From Anaerolineales bacterium (GTDB lineage: Bacteria; Chloroflexota; Anaerolineae; Anaerolineales; DRKV01): DNA of 34,645 bases. Both the position numbers and the translations under genes were made by a program. Shown here piece by piece: positions 4,067-34,645 of this stretch. Positions within the stretch are counted from its first letter, which is position 1; each line of letters opens with the position of its first letter. The notes under the pieces were generated by a model. It saw only the letters and a program-made list of their open reading frames with translations. It ran no database searches and was not told where the DNA came from. The stretch lies in the NCBI GenBank assembly GCA_024763355.1, contig JANTFR010000007.1:1-34645 (forward strand), written 5' to 3'.

Positions 4067-4074
4067 GGAGGCTG

Positions 4075-5094: not shown

Positions 5095-5115
5095 GTGCCC
5101 GTCCGAAAAACTGGA

Positions 5116-5137: not shown

Positions 5138-5143
5138 GGACGC

Positions 5144-5208
5144 AAATGCAGAATGCAGTCGCCCCAATGCTGCATTCTGCATTTTGTATTCCGCATTCAC
5201 CATTTCCC
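5144..5208. repeat. heptamer-period repeat forming a perfect 15-bp hairpin before cydDC
   Basis: The 15-base arm at 5144-5158 (two copies of AATGCAG with a leading A) is the exact reverse complement of 5170-5184, with an 11-base loop. The right side continues as five heptamers beginning ATT at 5174, 5181, 5188, 5195 and 5202 (ATTCTGC, ATTTTGT, ATTCCGC, ATTCACC, ATTTCCC). The left side has AAT at 5145 and 5152, so the period of 7 holds in both orientations. The tract ends against the cydDC start, preceded by pyrimidine-rich CTCCTCC (5209-5215). Its origin and function are unknown. Confidence 0.75.
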
Positions 5209-5215
5209 CTCCTCC

Positions 5216-11736: not shown

Positions 11737-11767
11737 TCGCAGGCCTCCATCCCCGGAGAAACAAACT

Positions 11768-14704: not shown

Positions 14705-14805
14705 GGTCTCTCGTCCTTTCAGGTGAAATGAAATATGGGCAAGCATTTTCCTCTGCTGCGAGATAGCATTTTGCTGCTTACGGACAGTGAAAATTGTAAC
14801 ACTTT

Positions 14806-17184: not shown

Positions 17185-17237
17185 TGTTTCTAGTTTAGCA
17201 TGATGGTCAGGGGTAATTCCTAACAACTTTGCCATGA

Positions 17238-17266
17238 TTGACGGTATTTGCAATTTCTTGTACACT
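17238..17266 (+). promoter_or_regulatory. candidate promoter for menC, nearly leaderless
   Basis: TTGACG (17238-17243) and TACACT (17261-17266) have a 17-base spacer. Transcription would start near 17273, only about four bases before ATG 17277, so the mRNA would be nearly leaderless. This fits the lack of a clear ribosome binding site. It lies in the divergent gap shared with the alpha/alpha-toroid gene. Confidence 0.45.
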
Positions 17267-17276
17267 TGAAGCGCCG

Positions 17277-18414: not shown

Positions 18415-18443
18415 TTGACTTTCCCCTCTTTTGCAAGTATGCT
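18415..18443 (+). promoter_or_regulatory. sigma70-type promoter of the chemosensory cluster
   Basis: TTGACT (18415-18420) and TATGCT (18438-18443) are exactly 17 bases apart, matching consensus at five and four positions. Transcription would start near 18450, giving a leader of about 75 bases before the first cheY at 18524. It is the best-looking promoter in the window. Confidence 0.6.
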
Positions 18444-18523
18444 TTTTATGCTGACAAACTGGCGTATGTTTCTGCTTGCTTGCCAGACGGCGCGAGAGTT
18501 CTGCATCACAGGAGTGAGGAACC

Positions 18524-18886
18524 ATGACGAAAATCTTGATTGTGGACGATTCCAGTTTTTCCCGCAGCGGGCTGCGGCGTCTCCTCGAGAGCAGTGGGTA
18601 TGATGTGCTGGAAGCCGAATCGGGGATGCGCGCCCTGGAAATGCTTCAGAAGGAGGCCCCCGACGTGATTACCCTGGATTTGCTGATGCCCGGCTTGAGC
18701 GGGCAGGAGACTCTCCAGGCCATCCGCAGGGTGGCTCCTCAGACGCGAATCGTTGTCCTTACCGCAGATATTCAGGAGGCTACCCGGAAAGAATTGTTGG
18801 ACATGGGCGCGGATGCCTTCCTGGGCAAGCCGGTCGGCCGAGATGCGCTGCTATCCACCCTAGAGCGGATTCTTGCTGAATCCTGA
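18524..18886 (+). CDS. CheY-like single-domain response regulator (first of two)
   Basis: The product is a 120-residue receiver domain without output domain. Phosphorylation-site residues are intact: acidic pair Asp8-Asp9, phosphoacceptor Asp52 (LDLLMPG), Thr80 and Lys102 (GKP). It would take phosphate from CheA and act by protein interaction. It begins with IVDDSSFSRSGLRRLL, typical of CheY proteins. AGGAG at 18510-18514 and a GAGGA nearer the start support ATG 18524. It is the first gene after the cluster promoter, and a CheC-type phosphatase follows 20 bases later, the usual partner for dephosphorylating CheY-P. No flagellar switch gene is nearby, so the target may be something other than a flagellar motor. 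Confidence 0.92.
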   Translation: MTKILIVDDSSFSRSGLRRLLESSGYDVLEAESGMRALEMLQKEAPDVITLDLLMPGLSGQETLQAIRRVAPQTRIVVLTADIQEATRKELLDMGADAFLGKPVGRDALLSTLERILAES

Positions 18887-18906
18887 CCTGTAACGAGAAA
18901 ATAGCC

Positions 18907-19533
18907 ATGGCTGTGCTAAGCGAAAGTGAACGGGAAGTTTTACAGGAGTTGATGAATATTGCGGCCGGCAAGGCTGCCGATACGATGGCGCGCTTGTTCG
19001 GTAAACGTATCGGCATCAATATTGCCGCTATCCAGGTGCTTTCTCAAGAAAGTCTGCTGAATCTCTTGGGTGAGACCTTGTTTCCCGGCGGCGCTATCGT
19101 AGAACAGAATTTCTGGGGGGATATCCAGGGCCTGGCTCTCTTGCTTCTCCCTCACGATGAGACCGTTCGACTGGTGAACCAACTTCTGGATGTCAACGGG
19201 AGACCAACGCATCTTTCCGTTGAAGACCGCGGTGTGCTGAGTGAACTGGGAAACGTCATTTTGAGCGCCTGCGTGAGCACCTTTGTGCAGCAATTGCAAA
19301 GACGCGCCCGTTTTCAGTTGCCGGAGGTCCTGACTGACTTAAACGCAGAGCAGGTTATTGGCCGCGTGGACCTGCATACCCGGAGGCAGAACGCGCAAGT
19401 CATCTTGCTATCCACGCATTTCGAAATTCGGGAGCAGCGTCTGAATGCCTGGATAGCCTTGATTCTGGCGCTGGAAACGCAGCCCTTGCTGAATGCCTTG
19501 CACGCCATCCGGGAGCCATCGGATGCGCATTGA
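18907..19533 (+). CDS. cheC: CheC-family CheY-P phosphatase
   Basis: The 208-residue protein has the two-fold repeat of the CheC/CheX/FliY family. The first helix motif reads ELMNIAAGKAADTMARL (about 14-30), with Glu14 and Asn17 where the catalytic Glu and Asn of CheC lie. The second reads ELGNVILSACVSTF (about 113-126), with Glu113 and Asn116. Both potential active sites therefore keep the E-x2-N core, although the preceding acidic or Ser position is less typical. The expected reaction is hydrolysis of the phosphoaspartate on CheY-P. No cheD gene, the usual CheC partner, is found in the cluster. The gene lies between two cheY genes and is followed by the second with a 13-base gap. Confidence 0.85.
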   Translation: MAVLSESEREVLQELMNIAAGKAADTMARLFGKRIGINIAAIQVLSQESLLNLLGETLFPGGAIVEQNFWGDIQGLALLLLPHDETVRLVNQLLDVNGRPTHLSVEDRGVLSELGNVILSACVSTFVQQLQRRARFQLPEVLTDLNAEQVIGRVDLHTRRQNAQVILLSTHFEIREQRLNAWIALILALETQPLLNALHAIREPSDAH

Positions 19534-19546
19534 GAGGAAGGCTGAG

Positions 19547-19918
19547 ATGCCTCGTGTCCTGGTAGTAGATGATTCCCCAACCATGCGCAAAATGATTATG
19601 GCCGCCTTGCGCCCGTTGCAGGCCGAATTTGGCGAGGCTGCCAATGGCCTGGAGGCCATTGAACAATTGGCATTGGGGAAATACGATGCCATGACCTTGG
19701 ACCTCAATATGCCTGATATGCACGGATTGGAAGTCCTGCGGTACGTGCGTAAACTGTCGTCCTTGGATGAAATGCCGGTGGTGGTCATCAGCACGCGCGG
19801 CGATGAGTACAGTTTGCAGCAATCCTTGCAATTGGGTGCCAACCGCTATCTTGTCAAGCCGTTCCAACCTGCGGAGTTGCTGCGTATAATCCAGACTTTG
19901 TTGGCGCAGTCCGCTTGA
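19547..19918 (+). CDS. CheY-like single-domain response regulator (second)
   Basis: The 123-residue receiver domain starts MPRVLVVDDSPTMRKMI, close to chemotaxis CheY. Asp8-Asp9 and phosphoacceptor Asp52 (LDLNMPDMHG) are present, followed by a Ser/Thr position (VVIST) and Lys in YLVKPF. I chose ATG 19547, with GAGAGGAAGG at 19532-19541 before it; in-frame ATG 19523 lies inside cheC and has no such signal. It is clearly different in sequence from the first receiver. One may be the signal-carrying CheY and the other a phosphate sink or a regulator with a different target. Its 3' end contains a perfect TATAAT (19885-19890) that could serve cheA. Confidence 0.91.
   Translation: MPRVLVVDDSPTMRKMIMAALRPLQAEFGEAANGLEAIEQLALGKYDAMTLDLNMPDMHGLEVLRYVRKLSSLDEMPVVVISTRGDEYSLQQSLQLGANRYLVKPFQPAELLRIIQTLLAQSA
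19885..19890 (+). promoter_or_regulatory. candidate internal -10 box upstream of cheA
   Basis: TATAAT at 19885-19890 inside the end of the second cheY matches consensus fully. The base region 17 upstream (TTCCAA at 19862) is only a partial -35. If active, transcription starts near 19897 with an 80-base leader to cheA. The leader contains the 11-mer CCGCTGTAGCC (19940-19950), also found in the leader of the MFS gene. Confidence 0.25.
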
Positions 19919-19976
19919 GGCTTGCAAAGGGCGGACAAACCGCTGTAGCCAAAAGATAACGACCTGTCGGCTTTCT

Positions 19977-21980
19977 ATGGATTTCCTGGCTGCTGAATTC
20001 CTGCAAGATTTTTTGGACGAAAGCAACGGGCATTTGCAAACCATCAGCACGCATCTGCTCGCCCTGGAGGCCGCGCCGCAGGACGGCCTGTCTGAGGAAG
20101 CGGTCAATGCGCTGTTTCGTGCCATGCATACCCTCAAGGGTTTGTGTGGGATGGTCGGCTTGCAGGAGGCTGCGGAACTGGCGCATGCGATGGAAGGTTT
20201 GCTGCGCAGCGTGCGCCAGGGGGAACGGACAATTACGTTGGATATGGCGGATGCCCTGCTGGAAGGAACCACGGTCTTGCAGGCGCTTATTGAGAGTGTG
20301 CGCACGCCCGAAGCCTCCGTGCCGGATACTTCGGCTGTGATGCAGCGTTTACAGACGATTGGCGGAGAAAGCGAAGCAGACGCGCTCTCCCTGGCGGAAT
20401 CTGCCGTTCTTCCCCAGACGCCGCCTCGCCCCTCACCCCCTGCGGATGATGCACTCTGGCTGCCAGCGGAGGTGCGGGCGCTCATCCCGGAAGAGCATAT
20501 AGCCCGCGCTCAGCAGGCATTGCAGGCGGGGAAAGTGCTCCAACTGGCGGTCTTTACGCCCTCGGATGAACGCGCCGCCCGCGGGGTAAACGTGACTGCG
20601 GTGCGGACGCAACTCGAGCAGGCGGCTCAGGTCATTAGTGGGGTGCCCCTCATTGAGGGACAGAAAGTGCGCTTTGCCTTTCTCCTGGCGAGCGAGACGC
20701 CCCTGCCGGAAGAGCAATTCCCTGATGTCGTCTGGCTGCCGCTGGAAGAACCGGCCGCGCAGCGGGGAAAGGTTTCTGCTTCTCCAATGGAAGTTGCTGC
20801 TCCCCGCCGCCCGGAGCGCCAGGGACTGGTTCCCTCCATGCGGGTGGAAATCGCCCGTCTGGATGAAATTTTACGCCTGGTGGGCGACTTGGTGGTCACA
20901 CGGTCTCGTTTGCACGAGGCCTTGCAGCATCTCGGTTCGGAGAGGCTCGACGAGTTGGAGGGTGTCCTGGAATGGCAGATGCGCCAGTTGCGGGAGGCTG
21001 TCATGCGGGTCCGCCTGGTGCCGCTGGATGAAGTCTTCGCCCGGATGCCGCTGGCAGTGCGCGATATTGCCCGACAGAATGGCAAGCAGGTGATGTTGCA
21101 TCTGGAAGGCGGGGAGACCGAGATAGACAAATCCATGGTCGAAAATCTGCTCGACCCTTTGCTGCACCTGATGCGGAATGCTGTCACACACGGCATCGAG
21201 TTGCCGGAAGAACGCCGCGCGGCGGGGAAACCGCCCGAGGGCCGCGTGACCGTGCGCGCCCGTCCCTCGGGGGAGCACATTCTGATTGAAGTGAGTGATG
21301 ATGGGCGCGGCGTGGACCTGGAAGCGGTGGCCTCCAAAGCCCGCCTGCAAGGGTTGCTGACAGAGGAGCATCCCATCGGCCCTGAGGAAGCCCTGAAAAT
21401 TCTCTGCCATCCCGGGTTTTCCACCCGCTCCAACGCCGATATGGGAGCCGGACGCGGAGTGGGCATGGATGTGGTAGCCCAGATGGTGGCGCAGATGGGA
21501 GGGGCGCTTTCCATGCAGACGGAACTGGGGCAGGGCACGACGTTTACGCTGCGTCTCCCTTTAAGTCTGACGATTTTCGATGCCATCATCGTTCAGACGG
21601 GCGCGGAGCGGTATGCCATCCCGCGCAATAGCGTGGAGCGTATCATCGAGATTGAGGCCCACAAACTCAGCCCCCTGGACGGGCAAACGTGGTATCCCTA
21701 CGAAGGCCGGCCTGTGCCTTTGGCCAACCTGGGAACCCTGTTCGCTGTACCGCAGGCTGGTGCCGGCCGTTACGGGTTGGTGCTGGCTTTGCATAATAGC
21801 CAGCCCCTCATTTTGCAGGTGGATGCGCTGGTCGGGATGCAGGAAATCGTCATGCGCGCCATGCACGACCCTTTGACGCTTTCTCCCGGCGTAGCCGGCG
21901 CGACCGAATTGGGCGATGGACACCTGGTGCTGGTGCTTGATGCGCTTGGCCTGGCAACTCTCTATAACGGAGGTTTGTGA
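19977..21980 (+). CDS. cheA: chemotaxis histidine kinase CheA
   Basis: CheA phosphorylates itself on a histidine in response to receptor state and passes phosphate to CheY and CheB. The 667-residue protein has the full plan: an N-terminal Hpt domain with phosphoacceptor His51 (AMHTLKG), a linker with a middle domain (about 155-260, possibly P2-like), the P3 dimerisation helices (about 283-350), the ATPase domain (about 350-530) and a CheW-like P5 domain to the end. The ATPase domain shows the N box LMRNAVTHGIE near residue 398, DDGRGVD, and GAGRGVGMDVV near 490. The ATG at 19977 has no clear ribosome binding site, and the 58-base gap before it is the longest between genes in the first half of the cluster, so expression may be separately set. 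The stop overlaps the cheW start. Confidence 0.96.
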   Translation: MDFLAAEFLQDFLDESNGHLQTISTHLLALEAAPQDGLSEEAVNALFRAMHTLKGLCGMVGLQEAAELAHAMEGLLRSVRQGERTITLDMADALLEGTTVLQALIESVRTPEASVPDTSAVMQRLQTIGGESEADALSLAESAVLPQTPPRPSPPADDALWLPAEVRALIPEEHIARAQQALQAGKVLQLAVFTPSDERAARGVNVTAVRTQLEQAAQVISGVPLIEGQKVRFAFLLASETPLPEEQFPDVVWLPLEEPAAQRGKVSASPMEVAAPRRPERQGLVPSMRVEIARLDEILRLVGDLVVTRSRLHEALQHLGSERLDELEGVLEWQMRQLREAVMRVRLVPLDEVFARMPLAVRDIARQNGKQVMLHLEGGETEIDKSMVENLLDPLLHLMRNAVTHGIELPEERRAAGKPPEGRVTVRARPSGEHILIEVSDDGRGVDLEAVASKARLQGLLTEEHPIGPEEALKILCHPGFSTRSNADMGAGRGVGMDVVAQMVAQMGGALSMQTELGQGTTFTLRLPLSLTIFDAIIVQTGAERYAIPRNSVERIIEIEAHKLSPLDGQTWYPYEGRPVPLANLGTLFAVPQAGAGRYGLVLALHNSQPLILQVDALVGMQEIVMRAMHDPLTLSPGVAGATELGDGHLVLVLDALGLATLYNGGL

Positions 21981-22441
21981 TGCTGGAACCGTTCATCTTG
22001 TTCGAAGTGGCTGGGACGACCTATGCTGTGCCCTCGGAGCAAGTTGTGCAGATTGCCATGCTGGAAGGAGTTACCCGCGTGCCCAACGCGCCCCTTTTTG
22101 TGGACGGCGTGGCTTATGTGCGCGGGCGGGTGGTGCCCGTTGTTAACCTGCGGGAGCGTTTTGGCTTCGAGCGTCGTCCTTACGACCTGAAAAGCCGCCT
22201 GCTGGTTGTCGAGTTGGAAGGCCGTTGGATAGGGCTGGCTGCCGATTCGGCCCACGAGTTTATTCGCCTGGAAAGTGACGACATCCAGCCTCCGCCCGAG
22301 GGCTCGCTTTCTGAGCAGGCCCGCTATGTAACCGGTGTGTTCGCGCGCCGGGAAAATCTCATCCTTGTGCTGGATATCCGCCGTTTGCTTGATGAGGATG
22401 AGAGCCAGTCCCTGGCAGAGATGCGCCTGGATGAAGCGTGA
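21980..22441 (+). CDS. cheW: chemotaxis coupling protein CheW
   Basis: CheW bridges receptors and CheA in chemosensory arrays. The 153-residue protein is a single CheW domain: FILFEVAGTTYAVPSEQVVQ at the start, the GVAYVRGRVVPVVNLRERFG segment of the beta-barrel, and a C-terminal LILVLDIRRLL strand. Length and motifs are standard. The ATG shares its first base with the last base of the cheA TGA (21978-21980), and CGGAGG at 21968-21973 is its ribosome binding site inside cheA, so the two are translationally coupled in fixed proportion. The MCP gene follows after 54 bases. Confidence 0.94.
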   Translation: MLEPFILFEVAGTTYAVPSEQVVQIAMLEGVTRVPNAPLFVDGVAYVRGRVVPVVNLRERFGFERRPYDLKSRLLVVELEGRWIGLAADSAHEFIRLESDDIQPPPEGSLSEQARYVTGVFARRENLILVLDIRRLLDEDESQSLAEMRLDEA

Positions 22442-22495
22442 GCCGCTCTGCCGTTCTTGATGTTCAGCCTATTGCTTTTCGGAAGGAGCAACCCC

Positions 22496-24442
22496 ATGAG
22501 TATCTGGAATGTTTTTCGAGGGGAAAATAGAACCTATCAGGCGTTGCAGCGCTGGGCTGAGGAGGTAAGCAGCGGAGCGTCCCAATACTCGGAATGGCTG
22601 CAACGCGCCCTGGGACACACCAACGAAATCAGTGCCTCTCTGAATGAGACCGCCGAACAGGCTGCCTCTATTACCGTTTCTGCGGAGCAATTGACCTCCA
22701 GCGTCAATGAAATGGCCGCCTCTATCGAAGAGGTGGCGCGCTTCACTGAGGACCTGGCCTCCGCTGTCATTGAGACGAGTGCTTCCATTGAGGAAATTGC
22801 GGCTGCGGTACACAGCGTGGCTGAGGTCAGCGACGAATTGGGCACTTCCTCGGATGAAACTATGGCTGTCGTCGGGCAGGTCAATGAAAGTGTCCAGGAA
22901 GTGGCCGAGCGAGTTGACGACCTGGTCTCCAGCGCCAATCAGACCGCGGCGTCTATCGAGGAAATGGCCGCCTCTGTCAAGGGGGTCGCGAATTTTGCGG
23001 AAGACCTGTCCGCGGCGGCGGAAGAGACCTCTGCAACCACGCGTCAGATGGCCGCTTCCATCCGACAAGTAGAGGCCACGGTGGAGCACATGGTAGAAAT
23101 GGTCATGGATGTTTCCGCGGCGGTGCAACAAGTTTCGGCTTCCATGAAGCAGGTGGCGGGCAGCGCGGGAGAAATTACCCGTATCTCGGATGATGCCGCC
23201 AGTATGACGCTGCAGTTGGAGCGCACCTCGCATCTCTCGGCGCGGCTGGGGGCCTCGGCTGCGGAAAAGGCGCACAAGGTCAGTCAGAACGCGGAAGAAG
23301 GGGCCAGACAAGTGAGCCAGGCGATTGAGAATTTCCGCCAGGTGCGCGCCAGCATTATTCAGGCATCTGCCCAGATTGACGAAATGGGAGAGCAGGCTGC
23401 CGGAATCGGTAAAATTGTCGAGAGCATCAATCTCATCGCCGAGCGCACCAACCTCCTTTCCCTGAATGCTTCCATCGAGGCGGCCCGCGCCGGCGAAGCC
23501 GGCCGCAGTTTTGCCGTCGTGGCGGAAGAAATCCGTAACCTGGCCGACCGGGCGGCGCGGGCGGCGGGAGAAATCTCCGATATCGTTCACTCCTTGCAGC
23601 GCACCATCAATGATGTCGTAGAGGCCAGTGAGCAGAGCGCGCGCCTGGCGGATGCGGGGGGCAGCCTGGCCGATGCTTCCGGTGAAGGGTTGTCCACCAT
23701 CCTGCGGGGCGTCAATGAAATTGCGGAGATGGTCTCCCAGATGGCACAGGCTGCCGGTGAACAGCGTCAGGCCAGCGAGAGCGCCTCACAGGCGGTGCGC
23801 GATACATCTCAGCAGGCGCACAAAATTTCTGTGGCGATTGAGGAGCAGAGCAAGGGCGTGGATGCGGTAGCGCGCGCCTCCGACAAATTGCGCCAGGCTG
23901 CTGAAGAAATTCGGGTTGCGATGAAAGAGCAGACGCATGCTACCAATGATATTGTCCAGGCTACGGAGAGCGTCACCCGTCTGGCGGGACAGGTGGCTCG
24001 TTCTGCCAAAGAACAGGCCCTTGCCGTGGACCAGATTGTGCAAGCGGCCGCGGCGATGCGCCGGGCGACCGACGTGTCTTCCCGCTCCATCAAGCACATC
24101 GCGCAGTCCATGGAGCAACTGGAAACCGAAGCCGGTCATGTCGCCCAATTAGGCGCCCAGGTGGCCCGCTCCACGCGGGAGCAAAGTTCGGGCGTCGAGC
24201 AAATCGTTTCCGCCATTGAATCTATTCGCCGCCGCGCCGATGAGGTGAAACGCGCCACCGGAGAGCAGAGCAAAGCAGCCAATGAAATTGCCTCCGCAAC
24301 CGCCAATGTCAACCGTCAGATAGCCGTTATCTCACAGACGCTGCGTCAGCATGACCGCCGCACGACTGAACTGAACGACCTGTTCCTCAAAATGCAAGCC
24401 AGCATGGAGCAGATTACCCGCGAAATGCCCGACGGAGAATGA
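22496..24442 (+). CDS. sensorless, membrane-free methyl-accepting chemotaxis protein with very long coiled coil
   Basis: This 648-residue receptor has no membrane helix, no signal peptide and no recognisable sensor domain: almost the whole chain is coiled coil rich in Ala, Glu, Gln and Ser. The conserved hairpin tip that contacts CheA and CheW lies near the middle (about 315-355), reading [19 protein letters not shown], then [20 protein letters not shown]. About 315 residues precede it and 290 follow. Both arms carry repeated units such as [11 protein letters not shown] and [11 protein letters not shown]-like blocks with Glu/Gln pairs typical of methylation sites. An ordinary signalling domain is about 250-310 residues in all, so this one is about twice as long. 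AAGGAG at 22483-22488 fixes the start. It probably sits in a cytosolic array. Confidence 0.9.
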
Positions 24443-24463
24443 CGCAGACTGCCCATACCGCTT

Positions 24464-26734
24464 ATGGATTTTGATTTTCGCGACCTCGGTTCTTCCGATT
24501 GGCAGAAACGCCGTCAGGCTGTGGAGCGCCTGCTGCAGAACAGCACGCCTGCCGCCTTGAAAGAGTTGCTGCGCGTTCTGCGCGAGCGGCAAGAAGACCT
24601 TTCCTTGCTCAACGCTGCCATTCAGGTTTTGCAGCACAACGCTCTGCCGGTGATGGCTGACCTGGTGGAACTTCTGCAAGACGAAGACACCGACACGCGC
24701 ATCTATGCCGCCCAGGCGCTGGGACAATTCAACCATGTCCTGGCTATTCCCCCATTGGTGAAGGCTCTGGAAGACCCTGACCCTAACGTGCGCTACCACG
24801 CGATTGATTCTCTGGGGCAACTGCGCGCCGTTCAGGCTGTTCCGGCTCTGCGCTCCCTGTTAAATCCGCCCGATTTCTTCCTGACGTTCCCTGCCTTGCA
24901 TGCCCTGGCGCGCATCGGAGATACCTCCGTGGCTCCCGACATCCTGCCTTTGCTGGATGACCCTGTGCTGGGAGGAGCGGCGGCGGAGGCCCTGGGAGAA
25001 TTGGGCGCTCCGGGCGATGTCCCGGCTTTGCTGGCCTGGATGGATTCCCCGCAGGGAGACCTGCTGCAGGGATGCGCCGCCCTGGCGCGCCTGGCTGAAC
25101 GTTTTGCCTCTCAGGAGGACTGGATTGCCGACAAAGTGCAGCGGAACTTGTCCCCGGCCCTGAAAGAACGTCTGCTGGCCGCCGTGGGCCAGGCCTCTGC
25201 AGCGCAATTACCCTCCCTGGTAACGGTATTGGGCTGGCTGGACGATGAGCAAGTGTACCGGGTTCTCTTGACCCTGCTGGAACGCCCCGAGGCGCGCCCC
25301 TCGGTGGAGCGGACGCTGGTTGCCCGCGGCGCCTCCGCTTTGCCCGCTTTGCTCAAAGCCCTGCCTGCTTTCGACGGGGAGGCTCTCCGGACGCTGGTGG
25401 GTGTTCTGGGCGCGATTGGCGACGAGCGCGCCCTGCCGTTGTTGACCTCCTTATTGTCTTCGTCGGATATTTCCCTGGTGGTTGAGGTCGTTGCCGCTCT
25501 GGGAAAAATCGGTGCTCCTCAGTCCCTTGATGATTTACTGGAATTGCTGCGCCACCCTTCGGGCCTGGTGCGCCGTGCTGCGGTGGCGGCTGTCAACTCG
25601 CTGGGACATCCCCGGCACACCGAGCGGCTCTTGCCTTTGTGTACGCACCCCGACCCGCGCGTCCGCGCTGCCGCGGTGGAGTCGTTGGCGTATTTTGCCG
25701 ACCATCGCGCCGTGCCGTGCATCTTGCAGTCCGTGGATGATGAAGCGGAAATTGTGCAATTGGCAGCGGTCAAGGCCCTGGGAGTGCTCAAAATAGGCCG
25801 CACGTTGGACGTCTTTGGCCGGGCAGTCCGTTCTCCGCATGCTTCGGTGCGCGCCGCAGCCATGCAGTCCCTGGCGCTAGTGGAATGGGAGGCAGCGCGT
25901 CCCCTCCTGGACGCCGGGCTGCACGATGAGGACGATTGGGTACGTCTGCATGCCTGCCGTGCCCTGGGCGTGCGAAAAATTCCGGCCGAGTCTATTGTGC
26001 CCTTACTCGCGTCTCTGGCGCAAAGCGACCCTGCCCTGCACGTGCGTTTGACGGCTATTGAAGCCTTGGGGCAGGTGGGTGGCTCTCTGGCCTGGGATGC
26101 CTTGTTGTCCCTCCTGGATGATAATTCGCCCGAAATAGTCGAAGCCGCTTTGCAAGGGCTGTCTCTGGCCTACACGCCGGAGAAAATGCTGCCCCTGCCT
26201 TCTGCTTTGTTTAGAGATGCACCGGAGAAGCGCCAGGCTTTCGTGCGCCGCCTGGGAACCAGCGTCTCTCCGGGAGCGGTTTTCTTGCTTCGGTCTGTAG
26301 CGGAGCAGGACCCCAATTTCGAGGTGCGTACCGCTGCCCTGGAGATGCTTGCCGCCTTGCCTTTGCCGGATGTGCCTCGGGCCTTGGTTGTTCTTTTGGA
26401 GCGCAGCCCCGATGTCCTCCGGACACAGAACGTCTGTTTGCGCTACGGTCTGGCCTGTCTGGATTTTATCCTGGAACGCCTGCCGGAAAGCCGGTCTCTG
26501 CGCCGGCGGGCTGTGCCGGTTCTGCAGGGCTGGGCGTCTCAATCTCCCCGCTCGTTGAACGCCTTGTTGAATCTGAGCCGTGACCCGGATGCCGGGATAC
26601 GTAAGGCGGCTGCTGCTGCCCTGTTTGTCCAAACGCATCCATCTGCGTATCAGCGCCTGCGGGAGATGCAGAGGGAAGACCCCAACCCTGAGGTACGTCT
26701 TGCTATTCAAGACCTTCTTGAGAATCAAGCATGA
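24464..26734 (+). CDS. HEAT-repeat protein within the chemosensory cluster
   Basis: The 756-residue protein consists of about twenty helical HEAT repeats of 30-33 residues and nothing else recognisable. Repeat cores include DPDPNVRYHAIDSLGQL, HPDPRVRAAAVESLAYF, DEDDWVRLHACRALGV, EQDPNFEVRTAALEMLAAL and EDPNPEVRLAIQDLLE, each with the conserved Asp/Pro turn and Val-Arg. No signal peptide or membrane helix is seen. HEAT arrays are protein-binding solenoids. It starts 21 bases after the MCP stop and its own stop overlaps the cheR start as ATGA, so it is surely co-expressed with chemosensory proteins. Possible roles are a scaffold for the array, an adaptor linking the sensorless MCP to an input, or a guide for CheR. 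None can be chosen from sequence. The ATG at 24464 has no strong ribosome binding site. Confidence 0.88.
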   Translation: MDFDFRDLGSSDWQKRRQAVERLLQNSTPAALKELLRVLRERQEDLSLLNAAIQVLQHNALPVMADLVELLQDEDTDTRIYAAQALGQFNHVLAIPPLVKALEDPDPNVRYHAIDSLGQLRAVQAVPALRSLLNPPDFFLTFPALHALARIGDTSVAPDILPLLDDPVLGGAAAEALGELGAPGDVPALLAWMDSPQGDLLQGCAALARLAERFASQEDWIADKVQRNLSPALKERLLAAVGQASAAQLPSLVTVLGWLDDEQVYRVLLTLLERPEARPSVERTLVARGASALPALLKALPAFDGEALRTLVGVLGAIGDERALPLLTSLLSSSDISLVVEVVAALGKIGAPQSLDDLLELLRHPSGLVRRAAVAAVNSLGHPRHTERLLPLCTHPDPRVRAAAVESLAYFADHRAVPCILQSVDDEAEIVQLAAVKALGVLKIGRTLDVFGRAVRSPHASVRAAAMQSLALVEWEAARPLLDAGLHDEDDWVRLHACRALGVRKIPAESIVPLLASLAQSDPALHVRLTAIEALGQVGGSLAWDALLSLLDDNSPEIVEAALQGLSLAYTPEKMLPLPSALFRDAPEKRQAFVRRLGTSVSPGAVFLLRSVAEQDPNFEVRTAALEMLAALPLPDVPRALVVLLERSPDVLRTQNVCLRYGLACLDFILERLPESRSLRRRAVPVLQGWASQSPRSLNALLNLSRDPDAGIRKAAAAALFVQTHPSAYQRLREMQREDPNPEVRLAIQDLLENQA

Positions 26735-27603
26735 CATCCGTCTGGAAAAGTTTATACCAGTATTCGCGGCAGGATGTGGATTTGTTGAGTGCGCTTGTGC
26801 GGCAGCGTATTGGATTGCACTATCCAGATGAAAAAGAAGACCTCCTGCTGGAAAGAGTTTTCCCTCTGATGGCAGAACATGGGCTGGACGCGCTGCGGGA
26901 TTATTACTATTTTTTGAAGTACGACCCGCAAAGCGAGGAGGAGTGGGAGCGCCTGGCGCACGTCTTGACCGTCAATGAGACCTATTTCTGGCGGGAATTC
27001 CGGCAGATACGCGCCGTGGCTGCCGAGATTGTGCCTCAATTCCAGCGCGCTGCCCCGGGAAAGCAGGTGCGTATCTGGCACGCCGCCTGCGCCTCAGGAG
27101 AAGAGGCCTATACGATGGCCATCGCGTTGCTGGAACGGGCGCGCTTTCTGTACGGTGAGATAGATATTCTCGGCACGGATATCGACCGCCAGGCTCTGGC
27201 GCAAGCGGAGGCTGGCGTGTACGGAGAACGCTCCTTTCGCAGCATCCCGACTGAGATTTTAGAGCGCTACTTTATTTCCGAAAACGGTCTGCGGCAGACC
27301 TATCGTATCACCGATGTCGTGCGCCGGAGGGTGCGGTTCCGCCGGCACAACTTGCTGGACGATGAGCAGATACGCACCCTGGGGCTGTTCGATGTCATTT
27401 TCTGCCGTAACGTATGGATTTACTTTTCAGAAGACGTAGCCCGTAAAGTTGCCGAGAGTCTGTACGGGGCCCTCCGTCCTGGCGGTTATCTTTGTGTAGG
27501 CGCTTCGGAATCTCTGCTGCGCTATCCCCAATGGTTCGAGCCAGTGGAACAATCCGGCGCATTTATGTATCGTAAAATTCCCGCGGCCGTTCAACCTCGC
27601 TGA
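26731..27603 (+). CDS. cheR: chemotaxis protein methyltransferase CheR
   Basis: CheR methylates glutamates of receptors using S-adenosylmethionine. The 290-residue protein has an N-terminal helical domain (about 1-85) and a Rossmann-type methyltransferase domain. Motifs are LTVNETYFWRE (about 78-88), the SAM-binding HAACASGEEAYTMAIAL (about 115-131), GTDIDRQAL and the late motif FCRNVWIYF. ACASGEEAYT stands for the usual CSTGEEPYS. There is no C-terminal TPR and no visible pentapeptide-binding specialisation. The ATG at 26731 overlaps the stop of the HEAT-repeat gene by four bases, indicating coupling. About 120 bases separate it from cheB, and I see no clear promoter there. Confidence 0.95.
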   Translation: MTSVWKSLYQYSRQDVDLLSALVRQRIGLHYPDEKEDLLLERVFPLMAEHGLDALRDYYYFLKYDPQSEEEWERLAHVLTVNETYFWREFRQIRAVAAEIVPQFQRAAPGKQVRIWHAACASGEEAYTMAIALLERARFLYGEIDILGTDIDRQALAQAEAGVYGERSFRSIPTEILERYFISENGLRQTYRITDVVRRRVRFRRHNLLDDEQIRTLGLFDVIFCRNVWIYFSEDVARKVAESLYGALRPGGYLCVGASESLLRYPQWFEPVEQSGAFMYRKIPAAVQPR

Positions 27604-27724
27604 GAAATATCATTGCGATTTTGCAAAGCGATGGGAAGGTAAGGAGCGTTTTGAGGGCAAAGCCTGCAACACACTCCTCCCCCGCGCAGAATTTACGTCC
27701 ACCGCGTTTGTGTCTTGGAGATTC

Positions 27725-28777
27725 ATGATGGAAACTCAACCTATGGTGCGTGTCCTCGTCGTAGACGATTCAGCCTACATCCGTAAGGTGGTTTCGCAAA
27801 TGCTGGAGCGCCATCCCGCTATTCAAGTGGTTGGCACGGCCCGCAATGGACGCGATGCCTTGGAAAAAGTAGCCCGCCTCTCCCCGGACGTCGTCACGCT
27901 GGACCTGATGATGCCGGAACTGGACGGTCTGGGTTTTCTGCGGGAACAGATGAAACGCAACCCCCTGCCCGTTGTTGTGGTCAGCATTGCCTCCTCCCAC
28001 GGGCAGATGGCGATGCAGGCTCTGGACCTGGGGGCGCTGGATTTCGTACAGAAACCGACCGCCCTGGCGCTCAGTTCCGTCTTTGAAATCGAAAAGGACC
28101 TGACGGAAAAAGTCCTGGCTGCCGCCAGCGTGTCCGCCGAGCGCCTGCCGCCTGTGTTTGCAAAAACTTCCGTCTCCCCTGTGCCTTTAGGGGGCGCCCC
28201 TCGCGGCAGAGTGGATGCCGTTTGCCTGGGTCTGTCAACCGGCGGGCCGCAGGCGTTACGTTACCTTCTGCCCCGACTTCCGGCTGAATTCCCCGTACCG
28301 ATAGCGGTGGTACTGCACATGCCGCCCGGTTATACGGCTTCCTTTGCCCAGCGGCTGGATGGACAAACTGCCTTGGAAGTACTCGAAGCGCGAGACGGAA
28401 TGGCGATGCGTGCCGGACGGGTTATCCTGGCGGCGGGCGGGTTGCACCTGACCCTCAGACGCTCCCCTGAGGGAGAAGTCGTTGCCCACCTGGATACATA
28501 CCCTGCAGATAAGCCCCATCGCCCCTCCGTGGATGTCCTCTTTCACTCGGCGGTCAATGTGTATCATGATAAATTGCTGGCTGTGGTGATGACCGGTATG
28601 GGCAGCGACGGCCTGGATGGGGCCGCCTGGGTCAAGGCTCAGGGCGGCCTGGTCTTTGCCGAAGCCGAGGCATCCTGTGTGGTTTATGGGATGCCCCGCG
28701 TAGTTGCCGAAGCCGGTCTGGCGGACCGCGTTGTCCCGCTTGACGAGATGGCAAAGGCGATTCTTGCTGCTTTGTGA
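27725..28777 (+). CDS. cheB: chemotaxis methylesterase/deamidase CheB
   Basis: CheB removes methyl groups from receptor glutamates and deamidates glutamines, resetting the array. The 350-residue protein has a receiver domain (about 8-125, with Asp14-Asp15, phosphoacceptor Asp60 and Lys110) and a linker followed by the esterase domain (about 163-350). The catalytic triad is visible: Ser171 (GLSTGGP), His198 (VLHMPPG) and Asp295 (TGMGSDG). Phosphorylation by CheA would activate it. Adjacent ATGs occur at 27725 and 27728, with GGAG at 27717-27720; the second gives better spacing. The gene completes the adaptation pair with cheR. A CheC-like gene follows after 39 bases. Confidence 0.95.
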   Translation: MMETQPMVRVLVVDDSAYIRKVVSQMLERHPAIQVVGTARNGRDALEKVARLSPDVVTLDLMMPELDGLGFLREQMKRNPLPVVVVSIASSHGQMAMQALDLGALDFVQKPTALALSSVFEIEKDLTEKVLAAASVSAERLPPVFAKTSVSPVPLGGAPRGRVDAVCLGLSTGGPQALRYLLPRLPAEFPVPIAVVLHMPPGYTASFAQRLDGQTALEVLEARDGMAMRAGRVILAAGGLHLTLRRSPEGEVVAHLDTYPADKPHRPSVDVLFHSAVNVYHDKLLAVVMTGMGSDGLDGAAWVKAQGGLVFAEAEASCVVYGMPRVVAEAGLADRVVPLDEMAKAILAAL

Positions 28778-28816
28778 AAACACCCCGCAGTGCCTTTCCC
28801 GTGAAGGGATTTTCTG

Positions 28817-29434
28817 GTGCCTACTCTTCCCCCTGACCATCTGGATGCTTTGACCGAACAGGTGAATATCTGTTCGGGGCGCGCCGCGCAGGTTCTCTCG
28901 CGGCTTCTTAATCGCCGCATCCTCCTGAATGTCCCCGAAGTTTTTTTGTGCCCCTTGGAGGAAGTTCCATCCCGGATGGACAGACTTGTGGGCGGTGAGG
29001 TGTTTTCTGTCCATCAACATTTCAATGGCGATTTGGTTGGAGATATCTTTCTCCTGTTGCGCCATCGCCATGCATTCGCCTTACTTGCGCTTTTAACGGG
29101 AGACCTCCACCCACCGGTCTCACTGAATGCCTCGGATTATGAAGCCCTTACGGAGATGGGCAACATCGTTTTGACCGCATTCTTGGGTAATTTTGCCGGC
29201 CTTTTGGGCATGCGGGTTTACCTTTCCGTGCCGCAATTCCGGGTGGATACCTTGCGTGCCATTTTTCGCCTCCTTCCCACCGGAATGACGGGTGTGCGCT
29301 ATGCCGTAGTAGTGCGCGTTCGCTTCCGGGTGAGCAGTGAGCAGGTCGAGGGACATATCGTTCTGGTACTCGAAGCAGGCTCATTGCAAGATGTTTTAAA
29401 TGCTGAAATATTTGCCCAGCCGGAGCGTACTTGA
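28817..29434 (+). CDS. second CheC-family protein
   Basis: The 205-residue protein is a diverged paralogue of the CheC encoded near the start of the cluster. The second helix motif is well kept (LTEMGNIVLTAFLGNF, about 112-127, Glu and Asn in place). The first reads LTEQVNICSGRAAQVLSRLLN (about 12-32), where Glu-x2-Asn also survives but the neighbourhood has changed. The acidic or Ser residue usual before the Glu is unclear in both. It may be a phosphatase for one of the two CheY proteins or a binding partner without activity. Start is GTG 28817 with GAAGGGA at 28803-28809; there is no ATG near the family start. It follows cheB by 39 bases. Confidence 0.8.
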   Translation: MPTLPPDHLDALTEQVNICSGRAAQVLSRLLNRRILLNVPEVFLCPLEEVPSRMDRLVGGEVFSVHQHFNGDLVGDIFLLLRHRHAFALLALLTGDLHPPVSLNASDYEALTEMGNIVLTAFLGNFAGLLGMRVYLSVPQFRVDTLRAIFRLLPTGMTGVRYAVVVRVRFRVSSEQVEGHIVLVLEAGSLQDVLNAEIFAQPERT

Positions 29435-29582
29435 ACGGCAGCGAGGGTTGTTCCCTGGTTAGCAGGGTGTCAATGGAGCACTTTATCTTTGCACGTCTTT
29501 GGAACTTCGTGCTGGTTGTCGGGCCGGATTTTACAGAGTTTGAGAAGATACATGTAGAGTGTTATGTACCGGAGACCAGGTC

Positions 29583-32522
29583 ATGTTTGGTTTTTGCACG
29601 CTGGATACTGATTTGAACATCACACAATGGGATACATGGCTGGCCAACGTGACTGGAAAGCCGTCGGGTGAGGTGCTCGGCCGGCACGTGGCCGATGTTT
29701 TCCCCGATTTGCGCCCTCGCGGCCTTCTGGCCGCGCTGGAATACGCCGCCGAAACGGCCGCTCCCGTGATGCTTTCATGGCGCCTTCATCACTATTTCTT
29801 CGCGCCTGCCGATGGAGAGCCTTTCCCTCAATCGGCTCTCATAGACCCGGTCTTTGAAGGAGATGTTTTCACCGCTTTGCGGGTCTCTGTTCAGGACGTG
29901 CGAGACCGCCGGGCCGCGGAGGACGAATTGCTCCGGCGCATCCGTCAACTGGAAGCCTTGCGAAAATTGGACCAACTCATCCTGCGCGGCGACCTGGAAG
30001 CCACCCTGCAGTATGTCGTCGAGACCGTGACTCGGCTGTTGGGAGGGTTGCACGCCGAAATTTTTCTCATCGAAGGCGCGCATCTCGTGTTGCGGGCGGC
30101 CTGGGGATTGTTGAACGAAGATGCCCCGCGCCGCGTGCCGCTGGAAAAGGGCCTCATAGGGCGGGCGGCTCAAAAAGGTGAGCCGTTCTTTACGCTGCGT
30201 GCCCCTGATGAATTGGGGTATCTGCAGGTGGATGCGCGTACACAGGCAGAAGCGGTTGTGCCCATTATCGGCAGCGACGGGACGGTTCTGGGCGTTCTGA
30301 ACCTGGAGAGCGACGCCCCTCAGACCTTGCTGCACGGCGGTGTGCTGGAATTCATGGACGCTGTTGCCCGGCAGGTCGCCGTGGCTTTGCATGCCGATGC
30401 CTCCCGGTGGGCGGAAAGAAAGCGCCTTGAAGATGTGCAGACCTTGCGCTCTCTCGGCGTCCAATTGACCGGCGCCCGCGATATTGAGACCATCTACGCA
30501 TCGATAGTGCAAGCCGCGGCGCACTTGTTCGAGGCTCCCGCAGTCTGGCTGTATTTGCATGCCACCCTGTATGACGGCGCATCACCTTTGCACCGCGTCT
30601 CCGCCTTTCCGCAGGATGGCGCGGGAGATGCCCCCGCGGGAATTTCGCCGGAAGTCTTCTCGCGGGAAATGGAGGCGGGAAATCCAATCGTATGGAATGA
30701 ACCGCCTTTTCCGGCTCCCCTGGCTGGTTTGAGGGAGCAATGGCGCAGTGTAGCCCTGCTGCCCCTCTCCGGCGGGCGGGGAGTACTGGGCCTATTGCTC
30801 CTGGGCTTTGCCGCTCCCTGGAAGTTTGCCCCCGAAGACATTCATGTTTTGAATTTATTCACGGAACAACTGGATGCCCATTTGCGGAGTTGGTATTTGC
30901 AACTGGATTCGCTTCAAAATCTGGCTGAACTTCAGGCCCTTCATCAGGTCAGTCTGCGCCTGCGCGAGGCCGGGAGCAGCGATGACCTCCTGCGGCTGAC
31001 TCTGGAAGCCGCCATGCAGGTGCTCAACGTGGACCGCGGTGTGGTTTTCAAGCGTATTCCGGGCGTTGAAGAACTGAGCGTAGTGTATGCCCGCGGCTGG
31101 GGTTTACAGGACGGGGGGCTTTCTCCAAAAATGTTTTTGGGAGATTCTCTGGCCGGGAAAGTGCTTTTGGAAGGCTCGCCGCGCCTGGTACCCAATCTGG
31201 CGGAGATTCCCCTGGACTCATTACCCGATTGGGTGCGGGATATCTTGCGCCGCGAGGCGCCTTCTGCCATTTTCGTCCCCATCAAGGTGCCGGATGTCTT
31301 CGATGCCGTTTTCGTCCTCGGCGCGCCTCCGGAGCGACATCTGGAAGAGCGAGACGTACACCTGATGGACACGATTTCTCAGATGGCGAGTACGGCCATT
31401 CAACGTAATTTCCTCCACGAGCGCACTCGCCAGCAGATGGAACGCTTGCTCTCTCTCAACCAGTTGACCACAGCCATTAATGCCAGCGTAGATGTGAGCC
31501 TCTCGCTTACCGTACTTTTGGAAGAAGCCCGTAAGCAATTGCAGGTGGATGCTGCCGCGGCTTTCCTGCGCCAGCCTCCACGATTGGCGCTCCAATTGCA
31601 GGCCTCGTTGGGCCTGCCAATGGAATTGCGTTCAGCGTTGCGTAACATCTCACTGGATGGGAGTTTCCCCGGCATCTCGCTTTCCTCTAACCGTCCCCGC
31701 GTGGTTCCCGACTTGACCATCGCTGTCGAACATTCCAGATATCAGGCTTTGTTTCTGGATGCCGGCTTTCGCGCCTGTGTGGTTTTCCCTCTGATGGTTA
31801 AAGGACAGGTGCGCGGTGCTCTGATGTATTTCTTCCGCCAGCCGTTTACGCCTGATTTCTTCTGGATGGAATTTGCCGAAACACTGGGAAAAGTTGCCTC
31901 TATGGCGGTGGATATGTCCGCCATGTTTTCCGATTTGCAGCGGGCCAACATGGAATTGCGGATGGCTTACGATGCTACCATCGAGGGATGGTCTCGGGCC
32001 CTGGAACTGCGTGATAACGAGACCAAAGGACACAGCGACCGGGTCACCGATATGAGCGTTCAACTGGCTGCCCTTATGGGGTTTCAGGGTGACGACTTGA
32101 CTGCTGTACGCTGGGGGGCCTTGCTCCACGATATTGGTAAAATGGGAATTCCCGATTCGATACTGCACAAACCTGGCCCTCTTACCGCCGAAGAGTGGAG
32201 AATTATGCAGCAGCATCCCGTGTATGCTTACAACCTGCTGCGTGAAATTGAGTTCCTGCGTCCCGCTTTGGACATCCCCTATTGCCATCACGAGCGCTGG
32301 GATGGTACCGGCTATCCACGCGGCCTGAAAGGGGAGGAAATTCCCCTCTCGGCGCGGGTCTTTGCCGTTGTGGATGTCTGGGATGCGCTTACTTCCGACC
32401 GGCCCTATCGCAAAGCCTGGCATCCGGAAAAGGCGGTGGCGTATATCGCGGAGCAACGCGGTATCCACTTTGACCCCCAAGTGGCCGATACCTTCTTGCA
32501 CATGCTGGAGCAAAGCGCGTGA
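29583..32522 (+). CDS. PAS - four GAF - HD-GYP c-di-GMP phosphodiesterase
   Basis: HD-GYP enzymes hydrolyse cyclic di-GMP to pGpG or GMP. The 979-residue soluble protein starts with a PAS-like domain (about 1-105), then four GAF-type domains (about 110-270, 280-430, 455-605 and 620-770). The catalytic domain (about 790-975) shows ALLHDIGKMGIPDSIL with metal-binding His849-Asp850, then HHERWDGTGYPRGLKGEEIP (about 902-921), the GYP signature, and a SDRPYRKAW segment. All diagnostic motifs are intact, so activity is likely. Its inputs would be small ligands or redox signals bound by PAS or GAF; none can be named. ATG 29583 is supported by GGAG at 29571-29574. The gap of 148 bases before it shows no clear promoter. 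The next gene, a diguanylate cyclase, overlaps its stop. Confidence 0.93.
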   Translation: MFGFCTLDTDLNITQWDTWLANVTGKPSGEVLGRHVADVFPDLRPRGLLAALEYAAETAAPVMLSWRLHHYFFAPADGEPFPQSALIDPVFEGDVFTALRVSVQDVRDRRAAEDELLRRIRQLEALRKLDQLILRGDLEATLQYVVETVTRLLGGLHAEIFLIEGAHLVLRAAWGLLNEDAPRRVPLEKGLIGRAAQKGEPFFTLRAPDELGYLQVDARTQAEAVVPIIGSDGTVLGVLNLESDAPQTLLHGGVLEFMDAVARQVAVALHADASRWAERKRLEDVQTLRSLGVQLTGARDIETIYASIVQAAAHLFEAPAVWLYLHATLYDGASPLHRVSAFPQDGAGDAPAGISPEVFSREMEAGNPIVWNEPPFPAPLAGLREQWRSVALLPLSGGRGVLGLLLLGFAAPWKFAPEDIHVLNLFTEQLDAHLRSWYLQLDSLQNLAELQALHQVSLRLREAGSSDDLLRLTLEAAMQVLNVDRGVVFKRIPGVEELSVVYARGWGLQDGGLSPKMFLGDSLAGKVLLEGSPRLVPNLAEIPLDSLPDWVRDILRREAPSAIFVPIKVPDVFDAVFVLGAPPERHLEERDVHLMDTISQMASTAIQRNFLHERTRQQMERLLSLNQLTTAINASVDVSLSLTVLLEEARKQLQVDAAAAFLRQPPRLALQLQASLGLPMELRSALRNISLDGSFPGISLSSNRPRVVPDLTIAVEHSRYQALFLDAGFRACVVFPLMVKGQVRGALMYFFRQPFTPDFFWMEFAETLGKVASMAVDMSAMFSDLQRANMELRMAYDATIEGWSRALELRDNETKGHSDRVTDMSVQLAALMGFQGDDLTAVRWGALLHDIGKMGIPDSILHKPGPLTAEEWRIMQQHPVYAYNLLREIEFLRPALDIPYCHHERWDGTGYPRGLKGEEIPLSARVFAVVDVWDALTSDRPYRKAWHPEKAVAYIAEQRGIHFDPQVADTFLHMLEQSA

Positions 32523-34645
32523 ATCCTTTGCCTCCTGAAACACTGGATATGCTTCCCTTTGGGGTCTTGTCGGTCACCTCAGACCTGACGATAGCGTTTG
32601 CCAATCGCTGGCTGATTTCCCAAATGGATGCTTCCCCGGAGTCCGTGCAGGGGAAGATGCTGACAGATGTTTTCCCCGAGATAAACGAAGCCCAAAAACT
32701 CTACGCCTTCCGTCTCGTCTTGGAAAGCGCCCAGCCGGTTGTGCTGTCTGCCGCTTTGCACGGCTACCTCATTCGCCTGGGAGGGGGCCTTCAAACAGAG
32801 TTGGAGTACATGCCTCAGGAGGTGCATCTCCTGCCGGTGTTTGGGACAAGCGGAGATGTAGACGGCGTTCTGGTACTCATTTACGACCGGAGCAAAGCCG
32901 TCACTCAGCAACGGCTGTTGAAGAATGAAATTCGCCGGACTCGCTTGCTCCAGAAAATTGACCGCGCTATGGCTGCCTTGCAATTGGACGACTGCCTGCG
33001 CATCATTGTGGAGGGAATGCAGGAGTTGCTGGCAGCCGATAGCGCCGCGGTTTTCCTGCGCCGCAAAGGCCGGCTGGAGACCGCCATATGTGCCGGAGAT
33101 TGCCGCTTTGCTGAAAATACCTCTTTTGCCGCTGCGGGAGGGGCTTCTGCATGGGTAGCGCGCACCGGCGTGCCCTTGCTGCTGGACAAACCTCGCCGGG
33201 AATTGCAGTATCGGATGCTCGGGGAAAATTCCCGCTCCTTTTTAGGGGTTCCGCTGGTGTTTCAGGGACGTGTCAAGGGGGTCTTGGCTGTAGAAAGTCG
33301 CTTGCCGGCGGCCTTCACCGCAGATTCGCTGGAAACGCTGGAAATGTTATCTTCCCGCGCTGCGGTTGCTATTCAGAATGCCATCCTGTACGATGAAGAA
33401 CAAAAACGCCGCTCCTATTTCCAGACCATTCTCAACCAGTCCAGCGACATCATTGTCAGCCTCGATACCGACTTGCGCATTACTATGGTCAATGCTGGTT
33501 GGGATGCTTTCGCCTGGAAGAGCGGGGCATCCGAATGGATTGGACACAAAGCCGTGCAGCGTTCTGTTTTGGATGTCTTCCCGCGAGAACACCGCGCCCG
33601 CTGGAAGGCGATACTGCATGAGGTCTTGTCCGGGAAGGTGGAATCCCAAAGCGAGGAGTTGTACTGGCCGATTGGGGAACACGAGTATTGGCTGAACGTG
33701 CGGGTGGCCCCCTTGCATCGGAGGGACGGGACTGTCATCGGGGTGGTAGCCAGTGCCCGCGATATCACCGACATTATCCAAACCAGCCGGCAGTTAGAGC
33801 GGGTCAACCAGCAATTGAGCACTCTCGTGGAGGCCATGCAAATACTCAATGCCCAATTGAGCGTTCGCGCTTTGCTGGATGCCTCTGTCAATTTCCTCTA
33901 CCGAATTTTCGATGCCGCCGGAGCCGCCTTTTATGCCTGGGATGCCGAGCGTTCGGACTTCGTCTTGCGCTCCGCACGCGGCCTGTCCGAGGTGTACTAC
34001 TCGATTCGTCTGCCCTCCCTGGAAACGCTGCCGGAAGAACATATCCGGCACTTTGGAGTAACCGCTTATCTTGCCGACGTGCGCTTGTGGAGTGCGGGAT
34101 TGCGGCAAGAGGAAACGCGGGGAGTCCTGCTGGGACGCGTCTTCTCCCGGCATGTTCTGGCCGGTCTTTTGGCGGTTTACTTTGACCATCATCGGCTGCC
34201 CACCCCGGAAGAGCGGGAACTCCTGGAGTCGTTCAGTACGCAATTTGGCGTCGCTTTGGAGAACGCTCATGCTTTTGCCGAGCAGCAGGAACTCGCCCTC
34301 ACCGATGCTCTTACCGGCCTGGCAAACCGCCGCCAGTTCAATGAACATTTGTTGGATGCCGTCGAGAGGGCTGCCCGGTATCACGAATCTGCCACGCTGG
34401 TAATGGTGGATATCGACGATTTCAAGTCCTTCAATGACACCTTTGGGCATCCGGCGGGCGACGAGTTGCTCAAAGCCCTGGCTATCATTATGCGCAGCAA
34501 TTTGCGCCGCCTGGATTTGTTGACGCGTTATGGGGGAGAGGAGTTTGCCATCATTTTGCCCAAAACGGATTTGCATGATGGGTATAACGTGGCCGAACGT
34601 CTTCGCGCCTCGGTGGAACGGCAAATGCCCCCCATCCTGGCCGAT
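32519..34645 (+). CDS. PAS-GAF-PAS-GAF-GGDEF diguanylate cyclase (runs off the window)
   Basis: The reading frame stays open for 709 codons to the last base of the window. Start is GTG 32519, which overlaps the TGA of the HD-GYP gene as GTGA, with GGAG at 32507-32510. Domains are a PAS-like module (about 1-115), GAF (about 135-295), PAS (about 298-420), GAF (about 435-590) and GGDEF (about 595 onward). The cyclase domain has LTDALTGLANRR, DIDDFKSFNDTFGHP, and the active-site GGEEF at 672-676. RRLD at 663-666, five residues before GGEEF, forms the inhibitory I-site, so product feedback is expected. It would make c-di-GMP, opposing its neighbour. The N-terminal PAS resembles that of the HD-GYP protein (both have a DVFP segment). 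Only the C-terminal end is missing. Confidence 0.93.
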   Translation, partial: MNPLPPETLDMLPFGVLSVTSDLTIAFANRWLISQMDASPESVQGKMLTDVFPEINEAQKLYAFRLVLESAQPVVLSAALHGYLIRLGGGLQTELEYMPQEVHLLPVFGTSGDVDGVLVLIYDRSKAVTQQRLLKNEIRRTRLLQKIDRAMAALQLDDCLRIIVEGMQELLAADSAAVFLRRKGRLETAICAGDCRFAENTSFAAAGGASAWVARTGVPLLLDKPRRELQYRMLGENSRSFLGVPLVFQGRVKGVLAVESRLPAAFTADSLETLEMLSSRAAVAIQNAILYDEEQKRRSYFQTILNQSSDIIVSLDTDLRITMVNAGWDAFAWKSGASEWIGHKAVQRSVLDVFPREHRARWKAILHEVLSGKVESQSEELYWPIGEHEYWLNVRVAPLHRRDGTVIGVVASARDITDIIQTSRQLERVNQQLSTLVEAMQILNAQLSVRALLDASVNFLYRIFDAAGAAFYAWDAERSDFVLRSARGLSEVYYSIRLPSLETLPEEHIRHFGVTAYLADVRLWSAGLRQEETRGVLLGRVFSRHVLAGLLAVYFDHHRLPTPEERELLESFSTQFGVALENAHAFAEQQELALTDALTGLANRRQFNEHLLDAVERAARYHESATLVMVDIDDFKSFNDTFGHPAGDELLKALAIIMRSNLRRLDLLTRYGGEEFAIILPKTDLHDGYNVAERLRASVERQMPPILAD

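Follow-up and report, generated by a model that had tools for sequence, protein, structure and literature searches.

A cytosolic chemosensory gene cluster occupies the second half of the window, by which we mean the whole stretch of DNA analysed (34645 bp, the entire contig C7 of an assembly of 2.76 Mb in 285 contigs that is 91% complete). Its core, RR-CheA-CheW-receptor-HEAT-CheR-CheB-(RR)-CheC, is common to seven Chloroflexota genomes from two branches and, judged by gene order and phylogeny, is not a chance arrangement. We read the cluster as a Chloroflexota array in which a HEAT-repeat protein would serve as a hub that reads CheY-P and acts on a PAS-bearing enzyme, with no tie to the bacterial flagellum. 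This reading is tentative, with a probability of roughly 0.4. The twelve genes follow one another from 18524 to the contig end at 34645, and their domains were assigned with Pfam at curated scores (the PAS domains of the last two products are listed separately):

18524..18886, plus strand: RR1, single-domain response regulator of type b (Response_reg, 1e-30)
18907..19533, plus strand: CheC1, CheC-like phosphatase (CheC, 2e-7)
19547..19918, plus strand: RR2, single-domain response regulator of type a (Response_reg, 4e-28)
19977..21980, plus strand: CheA, with Hpt, dimerisation, ATPase and CheW domains (Pfam; HTLKG and DDGRG boxes)
21977..22441, plus strand: CheW (CheW, 2.5e-34)
22496..24442, plus strand: chemoreceptor with neither a membrane segment nor a recognised sensor domain (MCPsignal, 2e-52)
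24464..26734, plus strand: HEAT-repeat solenoid, proposed CheY-P hub (HEAT_2, 2e-91)
26731..27603, plus strand: CheR, prototypal, without TPR (CheR, 8e-54)
27746..28777, plus strand: CheB, receiver and methylesterase (CheB_methylest, 2e-61)
28817..29434, plus strand: CheC2, orthologue of the relatives' CheC (CheC, 3e-9)
29559..32522, plus strand: PAS-4xGAF-HD-GYP phosphodiesterase with intact motifs, without receiver (HD_5, 1e-41)
29577..29942, plus strand: PAS of the HD-GYP protein (88.9 bits with the window left out of the profile; pLDDT 95)
32519..34645, plus strand: PAS-GAF-PAS-GAF-GGDEF cyclase, truncated at the contig end, without receiver (GGDEF, 8e-36)
32546..32932, plus strand: PAS of the GGDEF protein (75.3 bits with the window left out of the profile)

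The preliminary description of this DNA had named twelve co-directional genes with these domains, and this was borne out at curated Pfam scores. Its statement that the operon ends in a c-di-GMP pair could not be upheld: the contig stops inside the GGDEF gene and the operon end lies out of sight. The terminal 31 bases of the contig overlap no other contig of the assembly. Overlaps of 4 bases were found between cheA and cheW, between the HEAT gene and cheR, and between the HD-GYP and GGDEF genes. The intergenic gaps range from -4 to 58 bp, except for those between cheR and cheB (142 bp) and between cheC2 and the HD-GYP gene (124 bp). As far as the sequence goes, a single transcript for the twelve genes is plausible; promoter and terminator scans gave no excess over shuffled sequences.

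CheA, CheW, MCP, CheR, CheB and CheY, the set by which a Che system is recognised, are all present together (Pfam, curated scores). The CheW domain is matched exactly twice in the genome, in CheA and in CheW, both within the module, which is therefore the only recognisable array of this genome. A convincing membrane segment was found in none of the twelve products. For the receptor, whose start at 22496 agrees with that in G108 (L053), the best 19-residue hydropathy mean was 1.2, indicating no membrane-like segment. With an MCPsignal domain and neither such a segment nor a recognised sensor domain, it fits the sensorless cytosolic MCP described earlier.

The two response regulators represent types that are distinct across the genomes, with the phosphorylation residues kept; the type-b protein of G063 is shortened. 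RR2 is 51-61% identical to the type-a regulator of all six relatives, where this type lies upstream of CheA. RR1 keeps DD, D52 and K102 and groups with the type-b regulators of G436, G786 and G788 (42-51% identity), type b being the one that precedes CheC in the relatives. One CheC was found in each relative checked, and CheC1 is an additional copy. Both CheC-like proteins of the window pass as CheC, the CheX match being weak, and both keep the two ExxN motifs, with E14/N17 and E113/N116 invariant. The family profile also matches the CheC of Thermotoga maritima (2f9z) at 3e-21. Given the conserved motifs and this match, resetting of CheY-P would be expected. CheB is 53-65% identical to that of the six relatives.

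The other carriers are G063 and G108, same-order genomes from two further families, and G436, G782, G786 and G788, from a different class. Their CheA orthologues score far above the remaining CheAs. When 34 CheAs were analysed by maximum likelihood, those of the seven modules grouped in a single clade (100/100) apart from the CheAs of flagellated relatives, and within this clade the same-order and other-class members separated. A FastTree analysis of 52 sequences gave the clade a support of 0.999 against 45 other CheA rows. CheW is fused to CheA in G782, G786 and G788. The clusters run on with CheR and CheB and usually with RR and CheC, except on the first contig of G108. There, contig C160 ends in the HEAT gene and contig C10 starts in the end of CheR and continues with CheB, CheC and PAS-GAF-HD-GYP; we infer that the two contigs join. 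The G108 module is preceded by genes for a PAS-GAF-HisKA_3 kinase and a response regulator of LuxR type (L053:1-2353), and the window lacks both in that position. In G782, the frames of the final RR-CheC-PAS part (L124:5133-6978) are broken, through either decay or frameshifts, and only 50 residues of CheC were matched.

The HEAT gene has the same position in all relatives (33-41% identity). No HEAT match was present in the flanks of about 1.5 kb of the 45 other CheA rows of the FastTree analysis, nor beside CheA at 19 other Chloroflexota loci (read up to 20 kb) or at 9 loci from other phyla. When GTDB contigs were searched for close homologues with back-translated patterns, only CheAs of 26-38% identity from other phyla were recovered, with no HEAT match nearby. 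The HEAT protein itself was unusable as a genome-wide probe owing to an excess of unrelated HEAT matches. The module is rare: when 400 genomes of the order were sampled, the own genome among them, 3 had it at full-length scores; in the other class 4 of 158 genomes had it, and it was absent from two genomes of the same genus (59 and 84% complete) and from one of the same family (92%). Either old inheritance with many losses or an old transfer would fit this distribution. The HEAT gene had been described as a member of a cytosolic non-flagellar module, and seven genomes with a single CheA clade support this. The synteny proposed at that time held in part: the linkage of cheA to the HEAT gene is conserved in the seven Chloroflexota genomes, but the HD-GYP/GGDEF pair is not.

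We therefore distinguish the core from what follows it. On comparison of the clusters, the two terminal genes of the window are one local version of a variable slot and not a conserved part, and the c-di-GMP pair should not be taken as belonging to the conserved system. In the window, the HD-GYP domain has the motifs HDIGK and HHERWDGTGYP, as had been noted, and matches the solved HD-GYP protein 4mcw at 4e-51. The cyclase had been called intact. It does have GGEEF and, five residues before it, the I-site RRLD, but the domain is cut by the contig end: the GGDEF match spans profile positions 1-113 of 161, and the remaining third lies beyond the contig. In G108, the tail after CheC consists of PAS-GAF-HD-GYP alone. 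The G063 tail has three members: a kinase with PAS-GAF-HisKA domains, a GGDEF protein, and a frame for RR-HD-GYP that is broken by one TAA. The tails of G436, G786 and G788 hold a PAS histidine kinase and that of G782 a broken PAS frame, in all four cases without a c-di-GMP enzyme.

Of the three members at the level of the order, two thus have a c-di-GMP tail with signs of degeneration: HDIGM in G108 and the stop in G063. In the G108 protein (L157:3261-5738), HDIGM replaces HDIGK and no HSxR-like motif is found; the HD-GYP domain in this slot is possibly catalytically dead. The TAA of the G063 frame (L056:11630-12570) is in the receiver, the catalytic motifs are otherwise intact, and the frame may be a pseudogene or reflect a sequencing error. 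These tails bear on the earlier suggestion that the module sets the c-di-GMP level. Such a role is possible in this organism, but the pair is not conserved and neither enzyme has a receiver. Moreover, the own genome has 15 GGDEF matches, so the pair of the module need not dominate c-di-GMP. A search for the c-di-GMP receptor PilZ found none in G063, G108, G436 or the own genome.

A particular PAS subfamily connects these different tails. It was found at the N terminus of the HD-GYP and GGDEF proteins of the window, on the kinase and the GGDEF protein of G063, on the kinases of G436, G786 and G788, and at the N terminus of the HEAT proteins of these last three genomes. It is also present on the G108 HD-GYP protein, at 72.9 bits with G108 outside the profile, a match that led to the missing half of that cluster. 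Within the clusters, the profile scores were 149-188 bits, which is circular for profile members. When one genome at a time was left out, they were 75-172 bits, versus 19-24 for a control, a different PAS from the same GGDEF protein. The best match outside the clusters in the seven genomes reached 50.6 bits and the next 37.8. The subfamily is therefore nearly private to the cluster, where it is carried either by the HEAT protein or by the terminal enzymes. Its structure model (pLDDT 95) has a standard PAS fold whose nearest Foldseek matches, the ThkA PAS, PYP and LOV domains, name no ligand.

Could the last two genes be a separate operon, recruited by chance beside a complete chemosensory cluster? 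The 124-bp gap before the HD-GYP gene and the lack of conservation of the pair are what such a recruitment would leave. However, the same PAS family marks the post-CheC gene in G063, G108, G436, G786 and G788, whether fused to HisKA or to HD-GYP, and the slot itself is thus conserved. We consider a chance recruitment very unlikely.

Since neither terminal enzyme has a receiver domain, direct phosphotransfer from CheA to the enzyme, as in Wsp, is not expected, and a signal would have to pass by protein contact. The HEAT protein, the conserved non-enzymatic member of the module, is a candidate for this contact. Its structure model is an all-helical solenoid (pLDDT 88.5), and fold comparison returned generic solenoid matches, so the fold does not reveal the partner. 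Myxococcus and Halobacterium provide published cases of HEAT proteins adjoining CheY. In Myxococcus, the HEAT protein Cpc7 binds CheY7 (Darnell 2014, as cited in PMC11514114). In Halobacterium, motor switching requires OE2401F, which binds CheD and OE2402F, a protein of CheF type; when OE2401F is lost, the Che system is no longer coupled to the motor (PMC2666748). The open-access literature held nothing specific on HEAT repeats in Chloroflexi che operons. By analogy with the two published proteins, both on the CheY side, and because the HEAT protein is conserved and non-enzymatic, we favour it as the putative CheY-P reader, with PAS as the connector. In this model, the CheA-CheW-receptor array would phosphorylate both CheY types, CheC would reset them, and CheY-P would dock on the HEAT solenoid. 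Where the HEAT protein carries a PAS domain, the hub could act on the PAS enzyme by PAS-PAS pairing; alternatively, it could contact the PAS of the terminal enzymes. The local output in this genome would be c-di-GMP turnover by the HD-GYP and GGDEF enzymes, and that in relatives a histidine kinase.

The HEAT protein and the PAS domain might instead belong to the input, with a soluble PAS-HEAT protein sensing a cofactor or redox cue and driving the bare receptor in place of a sensor domain. The receptor indeed has no sensor domain, its gene adjoins the HEAT gene, and PAS is fused to the HEAT N terminus in three genomes (G436, G786 and G788). Yet the HEAT proteins of the window and of G063 have no PAS while the terminal enzymes carry one, and both published precedents act on the output side. 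An input role seems unlikely to us.

We also looked at the possible outputs. The flagellar export protein FlhA was absent from all seven module genomes and present in the flagellated relatives G015 and G665. A flagellar output (class F) was rejected on these grounds and on the separate position of the module CheA clade, in agreement with the earlier view of a non-flagellar module. Archaella are reported in Chloroflexota, where CheF is absent (PMC12488501). An archaellum was sought as an ArlI-type ATPase in the genome, in MAGs that are incomplete. The T2SSE matches over the cut-off in G063, G108, G436 and the own genome were best matched by the TadA model and not by the archaellum or PilB/PilT models, and an archaellum output was not supported.

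These TadA-type matches and the absence of FlhA would also suit an array that works a surface appendage, such as a Tad pilus, or gliding through CheY, with the c-di-GMP enzymes as stand-alone PAS/GAF sensors travelling along; the absence of receivers from both enzymes points the same way. A Tad pilus locus is present on contig C45 of the own genome (L129:3751-9822), with CpaB/RcpC, an RR-CpaE-like ATPase, CpaF and two T2SSF proteins (TadB- and TadC-like), and is a candidate output of the array. On the other hand, no pilus gene was recognised beside the module in G063, G436, G786 or G788, where the neighbours are partly annotated, and Tad loci may also exist in genomes without the module. We hold this explanation to be rather unlikely.

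Among known systems, Che7 of Myxococcus xanthus is the nearest in its parts. As described in PMC11514114 and PMC9040617, it is non-flagellar and its HEAT protein binds a single-domain CheY. A HEAT protein encoded with the system was found in all seven module clusters; the likeness of this protein to Cpc7 is one of description, CheY binding being only proposed for the module. The module differs in its two CheY types, CheC phosphatases and PAS-linked enzyme tail. The Che system of Halobacterium salinarum likewise has a HEAT_PBS protein, OE2401F, encoded among the che genes and needed for output (PMC2666748), but it has CheD, CheF and an archaellum, whereas the module genomes lack FlhA and those examined have TadA-type ATPases. 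Chemosensory systems tied to c-di-GMP fall in classes ACF and TFP, and Pseudomonas Wsp (class ACF) is one of them (PMC8846402). Its output is the REC-GGDEF protein WspR, phosphorylated directly, and its receptor is transmembrane. In contrast, the enzymes of the module have no REC and include an HD-GYP protein, its receptor is cytosolic, and CheC and a HEAT protein are present. Chloroflexi pathways have been classed as ACF, commonly with CheR-TPR, and such clusters can hold c-di-GMP response regulators (PMC3447774); the CheR of the module is prototypal without TPR and its c-di-GMP enzymes have no REC.

A further reading is a separate chemosensory class, with CheY-P read by a HEAT solenoid in place of a motor switch and the PAS of the cluster driving whichever enzyme occupies the last slot. 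We regard such a class as possible but doubtful; if it exists, it would be a plug-in output design, with histidine kinase, HD-GYP or GGDEF in the last slot. The core stayed while the terminal enzyme changed among these three activities and PAS appeared on the HEAT protein or on the enzymes. If a HEAT hub does read CheY-P, the clusters would offer a ready-made set of variants for studying the transfer of a CheY signal to another output where neither a motor nor a receiver-enzyme fusion is involved. They would help to decide whether reading CheY is a general function of HEAT solenoids, and by extension such hubs could be considered candidate adaptors for CheY in further Chloroflexota without CheF.

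The part of the window upstream of the module encodes other functions. A cytochrome bd island (2251-8785) starts with an Rrf2 regulator and includes CydA (2672-4066), CydB (4075-5094) and a single CydD-CydC fusion of 1210 aa (5153-8785). It is followed by a cytochrome b (9873-11246) and by a protein (11462-12841) that contains three cytochrome c domains of class I. A frame on the opposite strand (12935-15037) has weak multihaem cytochrome matches only. A family 2 glycosyltransferase (14806-16005) and a squalene-hopene-cyclase-like protein (16039-17265) are encoded on the minus strand, and an enolase-superfamily MLE protein (17238-18386, plus strand) lies 137 bp upstream of RR1.
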